This document shows positions 8,691 to 12,989 of a DNA stretch of 64,000 bases, one piece after another. The notes under the pieces were generated by a model. The model had not been told where the DNA came from and did not search any database. It was given only the letters and a program-made list of their open reading frames with translations. The position numbers and the translations under genes are program-made. The stretch comes from Acidimicrobiia bacterium (lineage in GTDB: Bacteria; Actinomycetota; Acidimicrobiia; Acidimicrobiales; Poriferisodalaceae), in contig JAJEEO010000006.1 in the NCBI GenBank assembly GCA_022820925.1, positions 1 to 64,000 of the forward strand, in the 5' to 3' direction. Positions within the stretch are counted from its first letter, which is position 1; every line of letters begins with the position of its first letter.

Positions 8691-8876
8691 GGCCCGCCTC
8701 CCCCATCGAGTCGCGAAATGCTTGCACGACGGGCGAACGAGTGCCGACAGTTGCCGGCGCAACACGAGAAACAACCCGGTAGTGCGGCCGATGCGGGCGC
8801 CTGTACGTTGCGGTTCTGGGCGTGACCTCCCAGCGAGTTGCGCGCCGTCACGCCGACCGAGGACCTGAGCCGACCG

Positions 8877-9872
8877 ATGACAACCCCGCTGAATGACCTG
8901 GTGAACTCCAAGGGCTATGTGGTGGCTGATGGTGCGATGGGCACGCAGCTGTTCGCGGCCGGGCTGTCGGCGGGATGGTCGCCGGAAGAATGGAATCTCA
9001 GCCACCCCGACGAGATACGTGCCGTCCACCGGGGCTACCTGCAGGCCGGCGCCGATTTGATCGTCACGAACAGCTTCGGCGGCAACTGCTTTCGGCAGTC
9101 GCTGCACGGCTTCGAACGGCAGGTGCGCGAGCTCAACATTGCTGCTGCGCAGATCGGCCGGGCCGAAGCCGACGCTGAGACGCAGAAGTCGGAGCGGCCG
9201 GTGCTGGTAGCCGGCTCGATGGGCCCGACGGGCGAGCTGCTGGCGCCGCTCGGCGACATGGGCGTCGAGGCCTGCGAAGACGCGTTCGCCGAGCAGGCCG
9301 CTGCGCTCGATGCAGGCGGGGTCGATCTGCTGTGGATCGAGACGATGAGCGCGCTTGACGAAGTCGAGGCTGCCGTCCGCGCAGCACGCCGGGTGAGCGA
9401 CCTGCCGGTCGCCGCGACCATGAGCTTCGACACCGCCGGCTGCACGATGATGGGTGTCACCGGCAATGAGCTGGCCGACCGGCTGGGGCCCCTGAAGCTC
9501 GCCGCCATCGGCGCCAACTGCGGCAACAACGTGCCCGACACCGAGGCAGCGGTTCTCGCCATCGCCCACGTCGCTCCCGACACTCCGGTCATCTCCAAGC
9601 CGAACGCCGGGGTGCCGGTGTGGCACGGTCACTCGCTCGTCTACGACGGCACGCCAGAACTGCTGGCCGCTCACTCGCACCGGGTTCGCGCGGCTGGCGT
9701 GAGCGTGATCGGCACCTGCTGCGGCAGCACTCCCGAGCACACGGCGAAGATCGTCGCCGTGCTGGCCGGCGATGAGCCCGCCCCCACTGTTGCCGCAGAG
9801 CCGAACCCTCGCGAGACGCTCGACGAGCGGCTCGTCCGCCGGCGTCCTCGGCGACGCCGGCACCGCCCTTGA
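8877..9872 (+). CDS. Homocysteine S-methyltransferase family protein
   Basis: 331 aa from ATG 8877. The TIM-barrel methyltransferase has GAMGTQLFAAGL near the N-terminus, TNSFGGNCFRQ, GSMGPTGELLAPLG, IGANCGNNVPD and GTCCGSTPEHTAKI. The Cys in GANCG and the CC pair in GTCCG are the three zinc ligands of this family. It transfers a methyl group to homocysteine from betaine, S-methylmethionine or a corrinoid donor. The Arg-rich last 20 residues are atypical. It precedes the UGSC two-gene unit by 58 bases; a link to sulfur/selenium metabolism is possible but unproven. Confidence 0.85.
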   Translation: MTTPLNDLVNSKGYVVADGAMGTQLFAAGLSAGWSPEEWNLSHPDEIRAVHRGYLQAGADLIVTNSFGGNCFRQSLHGFERQVRELNIAAAQIGRAEADAETQKSERPVLVAGSMGPTGELLAPLGDMGVEACEDAFAEQAAALDAGGVDLLWIETMSALDEVEAAVRAARRVSDLPVAATMSFDTAGCTMMGVTGNELADRLGPLKLAAIGANCGNNVPDTEAAVLAIAHVAPDTPVISKPNAGVPVWHGHSLVYDGTPELLAAHSHRVRAAGVSVIGTCCGSTPEHTAKIVAVLAGDEPAPTVAAEPNPRETLDERLVRRRPRRRRHRP

Positions 9873-9930: not shown

Positions 9931-11043
9931 ATGCAGACCATGACATCGAACGGGACATCGAACGGGACATCGAACGGCGACATCGAGCTGAACGACCCGT
10001 GGCAGGCCATCGAGGCCTGCTACGACGCCGGCTGGACCGACGGCCTGCCGGTGGTGCCGCCCACCGAGCCGCTGGTGGACGCCATGGTGGCCGGCGGCGT
10101 GTGGAACGCCGACGACGTCCTGCTGCGCGAACCCGCACGCGGCCTGGAGGTCACTGCCCACAAGGCGGCTGCCAACGCCGTCATGGCCGGATGCCTGCCC
10201 GAGTACTTCCCCGTTGTGGGCGCGGCCCTCGCTGCCATCGGCGACCCGAGCTTCGAGCTGCATGCCGTGTCGGCCAGCACCGGCGGCGCAGCCATCCTCA
10301 TCGCGGTCAACGGTCCGATCCGTAACGAGATCGGCATCCACTACAAGGAGAACCTGTTCGGCCCAGGCTTCCGGGCAAACGCCACGATCGGCCGCGCGGT
10401 GCGCCTCGTGCTGCGCAACTGCCTTGCAGCCATTCCCGGCAAGCTCGACAAGAGCACCCAGGGCTGGGCAGGCAAGTACGCGATGTGCTTCAGCGAAGAC
10501 GAGGCCACCAGCCCGTGGGAGCCATACCACGTGTCGCTCGGCTACTCGCCCGACCAGAGCACGGTGACCGTCATGGCTGCCGAGTCGGGACACAACGTGC
10601 TGAACCATGCATCGCCTGATCCCGAGGGACTGCTGAGCACGTTCGCCGACACGATGTCGGCGCTGGGCTCGCTCAGCTCGGGCCGGTCGCTGGTGGTGTT
10701 CGCCCCCGAGCACGCCCGCAAGCTCGGGGCCGCCGGCTGGAGCCGCACGCAAGTGCAGGAGTACCTCTTCGCTCACGCCACCCGCACGTATGCGGACGTG
10801 AAACGCGGCGGCAAGGTAGAGGCAGCCGGGAACGTCACCGGATTTCATCCGGCGCAGTGGATGGAAACCGATCCGCAGGTGCAGCCCGGTGACGAGGACA
10901 TCTCGGTTCCCCGCGGGACGTGTCCCGACGACATCGCGCTCATGGTGGGCGGCGGCGATGCCGGCGGCCACTCGTCGTTCTTCCCTACCTGGAGCCGGGA
11001 TCGCAGCGTCCCGCTCATCACCCAGGAGTTACTCACGCCATGA
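9931..11043 (+). CDS. Conserved protein encoded with the UGSC selenoprotein
   Basis: 370 aa from ATG 9931 (ATG 9940 is equally possible; no Shine-Dalgarno). The protein opens with a TSNG repeat coded by three 12-base units. The body has no fold I recognise: GWTDGLPVVPPTEPLVDAMV, HKAAANAVMAGCLPEYFP, SASTGGAAILIAVNGPIRNE and the C-terminal MVGGGDAGGHSSFFPTWSRD. Its TGA overlaps the ATG of the next gene (ATGA at 11040-11043), so the pair is translationally coupled and probably forms one functional unit. Function unknown; the Gly-rich C-terminal loop with His might bind a ligand or cofactor. Confidence 0.75.
   Translation: MQTMTSNGTSNGTSNGDIELNDPWQAIEACYDAGWTDGLPVVPPTEPLVDAMVAGGVWNADDVLLREPARGLEVTAHKAAANAVMAGCLPEYFPVVGAALAAIGDPSFELHAVSASTGGAAILIAVNGPIRNEIGIHYKENLFGPGFRANATIGRAVRLVLRNCLAAIPGKLDKSTQGWAGKYAMCFSEDEATSPWEPYHVSLGYSPDQSTVTVMAAESGHNVLNHASPDPEGLLSTFADTMSALGSLSSGRSLVVFAPEHARKLGAAGWSRTQVQEYLFAHATRTYADVKRGGKVEAAGNVTGFHPAQWMETDPQVQPGDEDISVPRGTCPDDIALMVGGGDAGGHSSFFPTWSRDRSVPLITQELLTP
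9943..9978 (+). repeat. Three tandem 12-base units inside the start of a CDS
   Basis: acatcgaacggg is repeated three times (last unit ends in c), coding TSNG x3 at the N-terminus of the UGSC-partner protein. Being a multiple of three it keeps frame. It sits where the start codon is ambiguous and may vary in copy number between strains. Confidence 0.85.
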
Positions 11044-11945
11044 CCGTCACCCTGGTGGACCCGACGCTGCCCGTCAGCAGTGCGGGCGTCGCACTCGCGC
11101 CGCGGCCCGACTCGCTTGACGGTGCTGTCATCGGATTGGTGAGCAACGGCAAGACACACGCCCCCGCGATCCTCCAGCGTGTTGACCAGAACCTCATCGA
11201 GACCCACGGGGCGCGCGACGCCGTGCTGATGCTCAAGCCCACCGCCAACTTGCCTGCAGCCCCCGAACAGGTCGAGGCGCTGGCCGCCGACGTGACAGCG
11301 ATCATCGCCGCCATCGGCGATTGAGGAAGCTGCTCGTCGAGCAGTGTGCTCGACGCCGTGCACTCCGAGGAGCTAGGCGTGCCCGCTGCGGCCATCCTGA
11401 CCGAGCCGTTCGCCGCCACCGGCGAGGCAATCGCCGAGCTGCAGGGCTTCGCCGACTACCCGTTCGCCACTGTGCCCCACCCCATCGGCAGCCTGACATC
11501 GACCGAGGCAATGGCTGTCGCCGATGCCGTCACCCCCACGGTGCTGACCTTGCTCACCACCACCAATGCCCGTCCCGCCCGCGCTGGCCATCCGACGAAT
11601 GAGGAGGAGCTGGCCGGCGCCCGACCCCAGCCAACGCGCCGCAGTGAACCTGTCGGCGCCGAAGAGTCGAAAGCGCCGGCAATCGGCTCCGCGCCCATCG
11701 ACATCGTCGACGAACTTGCCGCTGTGCTGCGCGCAGACCGTGCCGACCTCACGGCGACGGTCGACGGTCGCCACGTCACGCTCCGTCTCCACATTCCCGA
11801 CGAAGCCTGCGCCGAATGCATCCTGCCCGCCACGATGCTCACCGCGATGTTCCAGCAACGCTTCGACGCGGAGCTCGGACCCGGCTGGACCATCACCCTC
11901 GACGACCCCCGCGCGCCCGAACACACCGGTCCCGTGAACGATTGA
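11040..11945 (+). CDS. UGSC-motif selenoprotein with NifU-like C-terminal region (TGA 11322 read as Sec)
   Basis: 301 aa if TGA 11322-11324 is selenocysteine (residue 95); otherwise the frame splits into 94 aa plus an orphan downstream frame. Codons around the TGA give IAAIGD-U-GSCSSSS, the exact U-G-S-C motif of the (seleno)protein family named for it. After the TGA the same frame stays open for 207 codons and continues a plausible domain (VHSEELGVPAAAILTEPFA, ADYPFATVPHPIGSLT). Residues 222-290 (LRADRADLTATVDGRHVTLR, ACAEC) resemble a NifU-like C-terminal domain with CxxC, so this looks like a fusion. A hairpin begins six bases after the TGA. UGSC proteins are thought to be redox proteins; the substrate is unknown. 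Standard gene calling would start falsely at GTG 11346. Confidence 0.85.
11325..11345 (+). promoter_or_regulatory. Putative bacterial SECIS hairpin
   Basis: Directly after TGA 11322-11324, CTGCTC (11330-11335) pairs perfectly with GAGCAG (11339-11344) around the loop GTC, with a possible extra G-U pair (11329/11345). Exactly 11 bases separate the TGA from the G that opens the loop. Bacterial SECIS elements lie just 3' of the UGA, inside the coding region, with a G at the start of a small apical loop that SelB contacts. The geometry fits. Confidence 0.7.
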
Positions 11946-11990: not shown

Positions 11991-12989
11991 ATGAACGGTC
12001 AGCTGCTTGCGGGAACCACCAAGGGCGTCTTCGTCATCGACGGCGAGGGCGCCACACAGACGCTCGAAGCACGTCACGTCCGCGACCTCGTCAACGTCGA
12101 CGGCCGCCTGTTCGCCGGGTCGGCCGCCGGTCTGTTCACCAGCCCCGACGGGGGCATCACTTGGGCCGGGCCGCAGCTCGCCGGGCGCGAGGTGTGGCAG
12201 ATCCGGGCCGCCAGCGACGGCCGGCTGTACGCCAGCACCGAGCCCGCAGCCCTGTTTCGCAGCGACGACGGCGGCGCGACGTGGGACGAGATCACCGCAT
12301 TCGCTGCGCTCCCCGAAGCCGAGCGCTGGTGCGTGCCGGTCGAGCCTCCCCTGCCGGGACGGGCACGGGCGCTCGTCATCGACGAGGCCGATCCCGACCG
12401 CATCTGGGTCGGCGTCGAGGTCGGCGGTGTGGCCCGCACCACCGACGGCGGCGAGAGCTGGGCGGTCGACCTGCCCGGCGACAACCCAGACATCCACATG
12501 ATGTTCGCCCACCCCGCCGAGCCGGGAGTGCTGTTCATCAGCACCGGATACGGCCGCTTTGACGGCGTCGCCGAAGAGCTCGAAGGCAACGCCGGCGTGT
12601 TCCGCTCCGACGACTACGGCGAGACGTGGGAATACGCATGGAAGGGCGTCGTGCCGCGCTACTCGCGTCCCCTGTGCATCGACCGCCGCGACCCCTACAG
12701 CGTCACCGTCGCCAGCGCGCCCACGGCCTTCTCCCACTACAAGGACGACGGCGGGGCTCATGCGGACCTCTACCGGTCTGACGACCACGGCCAGTCGTGG
12801 CGGTCGCTCTGCGACGACGCCCACTCGCCGTCCCCGGTCAACTTCCATGGCCTGATCGCCGATCCCGACAACGTGGGCGGGGTGCTGGTCGGCACCGACA
12901 CCGGCGAGGTCTGGCAGGTGTCCGACGATGCCCAGTGGACCGAGCTCGGGTCCGGCCTGCCGCTCGTCTGGTCGCTGGCGGTGGTCTGA
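11991..12989 (+). CDS. BNR/Asp-box beta-propeller protein
   Basis: 332 aa. Five Asp-boxes are visible: SPDGGITW, SDDGGATW, TTDGGESW, SDDYGETW and SDDHGQSW. They mark the turns of a beta-propeller of sialidase/photosystem-stability-factor type. No sialidase catalytic Arg triad or Tyr was identified and there is no signal peptide, so it is probably a cytoplasmic scaffold or an unknown hydrolase. ATG 11991 has TAGGGT at 11979-11984, six bases away, so the transcript is probably leaderless; GGGTGA could instead serve as a weak ribosome site. It follows the selenoprotein gene by 45 bases. Confidence 0.8.
   Translation: MNGQLLAGTTKGVFVIDGEGATQTLEARHVRDLVNVDGRLFAGSAAGLFTSPDGGITWAGPQLAGREVWQIRAASDGRLYASTEPAALFRSDDGGATWDEITAFAALPEAERWCVPVEPPLPGRARALVIDEADPDRIWVGVEVGGVARTTDGGESWAVDLPGDNPDIHMMFAHPAEPGVLFISTGYGRFDGVAEELEGNAGVFRSDDYGETWEYAWKGVVPRYSRPLCIDRRDPYSVTVASAPTAFSHYKDDGGAHADLYRSDDHGQSWRSLCDDAHSPSPVNFHGLIADPDNVGGVLVGTDTGEVWQVSDDAQWTELGSGLPLVWSLAVV

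Follow-up and report, generated by a model that had tools for sequence, protein, structure and literature searches.

UGSC-containing selenoproteins were described in 2008 in the GOS survey and are widespread in aquatic samples (PMC2398784). The same survey counts 255 selenocysteine (Sec) versions against 21 Cys versions, suggests a thioredoxin-like fold for UGSC proteins, and includes a UGSC/Unknown_1 fusion in its Figure S1A (PMC2398784). A 2026 review lists the UGSC family without a function. This review also gives a model of the bacterial SECIS (bSECIS) element, with a loop of 3-9 nt that carries an early G, a stem of 4-16 bp, a distance of 16-37 nt from the UGA codon and an energy of at most -7.5 (PMC13188914).

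In this study, we analyzed a 64,000-nucleotide stretch of DNA from an Acidimicrobiia bacterium (hereafter, the window), which encodes a UGSC protein with an additional C-terminal CxxC domain directly behind a gene for a partner protein. Based on the sequence analyses described below, we propose that the UGSC protein is a true selenoprotein and is probably part of a redox module together with the neighboring genes (rough probability, 0.9).

The UGSC gene and its in-frame TGA codon

The UGSC gene is located at 11040-11945 on the plus strand, and its ATG codon lies within an ATGA overlap with the upstream gene. When the TGA codon at 11322-11324 was translated as U, we obtained an uninterrupted product of 301 residues, in which D-U-G-S-C corresponds to residues 94-98 and Sec to residue 95. 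The earlier note had proposed this reading, with a frame that remains open to 11945 and a domain that continues across the TGA codon, and both our translation and our profile search bear it out. The Pfam model of the UGSC family (PF24696) covered residues 5-173 without a break (166 bits against a gathering score of 25; E 1.1e-48), and the TGA codon is inside this match; the UGSC domain is encoded at 11052-11558 on the plus strand. The NCBIfam equivalog model NF041046 gave 121 bits when C was written for U, and its cut-off of 125 was narrowly missed. The window protein is filed under PF24696 and not under the stricter NF041046. The UGSC-NifU-like gene is a member of a known selenoprotein family in a new architecture.

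AlphaFold predicted a Rossmann/flavodoxin-like alpha/beta unit for the UGSC domain with high confidence (pLDDT mostly >90), and Sec95 is placed at the N-terminus of the helix that follows the third strand. Sequence and fold searches of the UGSC domain against the PDB found no close relative, only generic alpha/beta matches.

UGSC matches were found in all 39 genomes searched of the bacterial family to which the window belongs, and orthologues with the fused UGSC-NifU-like architecture were present in nine of 11 genomes of the genus. Among the UGSC domains of the cross-phylum loci described below, the Sec position is encoded by TGA in 77 of 77. We calculated mean pairwise dN/dS values for seven orthologues of the fused gene: 0.234 upstream of the TGA codon and 0.275 downstream of it within the UGSC domain. 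Because the values are similar on both sides, the region past the TGA codon appears to be translated and selected like the region before it.

The same genome encodes selA (395 bits), selB (272 bits), selD (356 bits) and tRNA-Sec (67 bits), each above its cut-off, and ARAGORN assigned the anticodon TCA to this tRNA. Moreover, there are five UGSC genes in the genome, and every one of them contains a single in-frame TGA codon. The proposal that the organism uses selenocysteine thus agrees with the full gene set and with the paralogues. The selD gene itself (L023, C13:426129-427082) has one in-frame TGA codon; therefore, SelD is probably a selenoprotein too. Ordinary TGA stop codons end both the partner gene and the UGSC gene. 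Thus, UGA is still a stop codon in this genome, and the genetic code is not an altered one.

The SECIS element

Two hairpins can be drawn after the TGA codon. The 6-bp hairpin CTGCTC-GTC-GAGCAG at 11330-11344 has a folding energy of -6.7 kcal/mol, and its loop starts 11 nt past the UGA codon. The second is a 9-bp stem, CGTCGAGCA-GTG-TGCTCGACG, at 11335-11355 on the plus strand, with a folding energy of -13.5 kcal/mol and a loop 19 nt past the UGA codon. These two structures overlap and are mutually exclusive. The stem at 11335-11355 satisfies all constraints of the bSECIS model; its loop has 3 nt with G first and U second. The loop of the hairpin at 11330-11344 is too close to the UGA codon and falls outside the published range.

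Folding, pairing and covariation all point to the stem at 11335-11355. It is found at an equal distance from the UGA codon in nearly all relatives, and its six core pairs are all kept in 86 of 94 distinct family sequences. When synonymous codons were resampled, all core pairs were present in a mean of 5.9 sequences and in a maximum of 14 in 500 runs, as compared with the 86 observed. For 28 representative sequences, the covariation score was 0.283, as compared with 0.109 for shuffles and at most 0.111 for slid versions, and five pairs were altered on both sides. Residue swaps track the pairing: the S-SVLD, C-SVHD and W-SLHD versions preserve the stem with other bases. Thus, the expectation of a SECIS hairpin just after the TGA codon was correct, but the hairpin that the earlier note had chosen (11330-11344) is the wrong one; the true stem is conserved, stronger and within the range.

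The C-terminal NifU-like domain

The UGSC domain is followed by a variable linker (11568-11687, plus strand; residues 176-215), which is modeled with low confidence, and then by a CxxC domain (11688-11918, plus strand). The CxxC motif is CAEC, formed by residues 257-260 (Cys257 and Cys260; 11808-11819) within the last 80 residues. In the seven orthologues, the mean pairwise dN/dS value was 0.283 for the CxxC domain versus 0.82 for the linker. A NifU fold is expected to have the order helix-strand-strand-helix-strand, and the same order is predicted for the window domain.

The NifU profile (PF01106) gave no Pfam match with the window domain, and its matches were weak for one member of the alignment (E 0.0059) and for the domain of the orthologue L033 (E 0.11). 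Stand-alone homologues of the domain scored 35.5 and 33.5 bits, above the cut-off of 27, with E values as low as 1e-8. On these results, we call the CxxC domain of the window NifU-like, by homology via intermediate sequences, and do not file it as a member of PF01106. The fusion to a NifU-like CxxC region, which the earlier note had inferred, therefore holds, although the likeness is indirect.

Homologues of the CxxC domain were found in 36 of 296 genomes sampled from the class. The domain is mostly encoded as a separate small gene, and UGSC or the partner was alongside in 17 of 19 further CxxC-domain loci; in the other two, neither was within 1.5 kb. In addition, in bacterium HR28 a stand-alone CxxC-domain gene immediately precedes UGSC and the partner, and in a Bacillota genome such a gene is beside partner genes. 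Because the CxxC domain is a separate gene in other UGSC loci, the window gene is a fusion of two components of one system.

The partner protein encoded upstream

The partner gene (9931-11043, plus strand) overlaps the start codon of the UGSC gene by ATGA; its own start codon is provisional. The product belongs to a GWxDGLPxxPPT...NAVMAGC family that has two conserved cysteines, one of them invariant and the other nearly so, and it matched no Pfam or NCBIfam model. Sequence searches against the PDB found no close relative of the partner, and its model (pTM 0.81) gave no trustworthy match there, the best Z value being 6.8. The chorismate mutase and YjgF/RidA folds, class I fumarase and cyclic amide hydrolases gave weak matches, which were below a trustworthy level. 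A 12-base unit, GACATCGAACGG, is repeated 3.7 times at 9942-9986, where the partner gene begins, and encodes a TSNG repeat.

Relatives of the partner were encoded within 1.5 kb of all 34 UGSC genes examined in the bacterial family of the window. We also collected 80 partner loci from Acidimicrobiia, Chloroflexota, Proteobacteria, Rokubacteria, Binatia, Bacillus and others. At 74 of these 80 loci a UGSC domain is encoded, in 73 cases on the same strand, with a median gap of 100 bases. It should be mentioned that we retrieved these loci by searching with the partner and not with UGSC; therefore, the association is not built into the sample.

Natural fusions were also observed. In the genome of the window (L006, C17:119598-120125, minus strand), a UGSC paralogue runs past its Sec codon into a partner homologue as one protein. 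The sixth partner copy of this genome (L202:990-2588, C16, minus strand) is not beside a UGSC gene; instead, its N-terminus carries a fused domain that has a CPTC motif and matches thioredoxin weakly. In many relatives, the partner frame has about 500 codons, which may correspond to the same CPTC-domain fusion. Gene adjacency and fusion show that UGSC and the partner are linked in function, which is distinct from a physical complex or from electron flow.

Other genes at the locus

A gene for a homocysteine S-methyltransferase (8838-9872; NF005718, 343.8 bits against a cut-off of 338) is located directly upstream of the partner gene. A gene for a BNR/sortilin-like beta-propeller (11991-12989) starts 45 bases past the UGSC gene, and in other phyla the UGSC-partner loci repeatedly have propeller genes (NHL, PQQ and others) as neighbors. 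Among 124 neighboring genes surveyed with Pfam, there were several beta-propellers, alpha/beta hydrolases, luciferase-like enzymes and acyl-CoA enzymes, with no dominant pathway.

Proposed mechanism and alternative explanations

We propose the following mechanism. SelB and Sec-tRNA(UCA) would bind the stem with the GUG loop at 11335-11355, so that ribosomes would read the UGA codon at 11322-11324 as selenocysteine. Sec95, where a helix begins, would then form a selenol/thiol redox center with Cys98 as its resolving partner (U-x-x-C). The NifU-like CxxC domain would most likely feed or reset this center with electrons (or a cluster). The partner, with its conserved cysteines, would most likely be the subunit that binds the substrate or catalyzes the reaction, and the Sec center would reduce it or work with it. 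Because the partner has no recognizable fold and no family, a catalytic role for it is a guess. That UGSC, thioredoxin-like and NifU-like partners are swapped for one another points to redox. The sequences show the context for Sec decoding, the conserved SECIS, the domain make-up, the natural fusions and the nearly constant association with the partner, and we infer the redox chemistry, the direction of electron flow and the formation of a complex by the module; for the specific mechanism of electron flow, we consider the chances to be even. It is somewhat more probable than not that UGSC, the DGLP...NAVMAGC protein as a constant second subunit in many phyla, and a NifU-like protein as a third, electron-supplying subunit constitute an undescribed enzyme that depends nearly obligately on Sec, and that its UGSC and NifU-like subunits are fused in this lineage.

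Other explanations should be weighed. If the TGA codon were a real stop, the downstream frame would be either a separate gene or a degenerate leftover (pseudogene). Standard ORF calling yields two ORFs, 10920-11324 and 11346-11945, which favors this idea; the earlier note had foreseen such a split in automated annotation. However, the UGSC profile extends across the TGA codon, the dN/dS value past it (0.275) is close to that before it (0.234), TGA is kept at this position across phyla (77/77) and once in each of the five paralogues of one genome, and the Sec machinery is complete. Therefore, we regard a real stop as extremely improbable. Even if selenocysteine is inserted, the module might serve selenium or metal handling or cluster transfer, in which the NifU-like domain would carry an Fe-S cluster or metal to the partner and Sec would be a ligand. 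The resemblance of the CxxC domain to NifU fits this idea, and Sec can ligate metals. Nevertheless, the NifU-like component is absent from most UGSC loci, an ordinary NifU domain is encoded elsewhere in the genome, and the CPTC domain with weak thioredoxin matches on the other partner paralogue points to redox. Thus, cluster or metal transfer is unlikely, but it deserves more weight than the other alternatives.

UGSC might also be distantly related to the Sec-bearing portion of GrdB/PrdB (B subunit of glycine/proline reductase) and catalyze a similar reductive cleavage. In both, a P...HP pattern comes after U-x-x-C with similar spacing, which we take to be a superficial likeness. In contrast to this expectation, hhalign comparison of UGSC with PF07355 gave probabilities of only 0.5% and 0.2% with two GRDB alignments, whose sequences were taken from a single phylum and lack an in-frame TGA codon, and none of 18 UGSC proteins matched GRDB at E 10. 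We therefore dropped this homology as highly improbable. In the genome of the window, two proteins (C6:139411 and C12:86862) gave weak matches limited to the C-terminal half of the GRDB model, and neither has a TGA codon; such half-matches are common in the phylum. A selenoprotein within a redox module thus remains our preferred reading.

Comparison with known systems

In aquatic samples, UGSC proteins rank with the most common selenoproteins of bacteria. The near absence of Cys versions, both in our loci and in the counts of the 2008 survey (PMC2398784), suggests a chemistry in which sulfur replaces selenium poorly. The UGSC gene and its neighbors form a widespread, apparently undescribed system of two to three components, with a probable role in redox. 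In the literature searched, which was mostly outside subscription journals, we found no mention of the partner, the NifU-like component or the three-component module. The constant partner, the natural fusions and the third CxxC component provide a handle on what to co-purify and which cysteines to probe. Of these results, we value the three-component module and its constant partner above the selenoprotein itself.

As compared with the UGSC family (PF24696/NF041046), the window protein has the same domain, the same U-G-S-C motif, the same in-frame TGA codon and a bacterial SECIS directly after this codon (PMC2398784). It differs in its linker and C-terminal NifU-like CxxC domain, in scoring 4 bits under the NCBIfam cut-off, and in its constant partner gene, which we did not find described. 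The UGSC/Unknown_1 fusion also joins a UGSC protein to a conserved extra domain, and Unknown_1 may correspond to the CxxC domain, to the domain of the partner or to another one (PMC2398784). The earlier note could not match the combination to a described case; the fusion is real, but because a UGSC/Unknown_1 fusion was published in 2008, this claim may be too strong. The C-terminal domain shares with that of NifU (PF01106) a homology through stand-alone relatives, a CxxC motif and a compatible predicted topology. In contrast to PF01106 members, it has no Pfam match of its own and is encoded together with UGSC. Moreover, it has ADRAD where stand-alone relatives have (A/S)DG(G/A)D, and it carries CAEC...P and a DPR ending.
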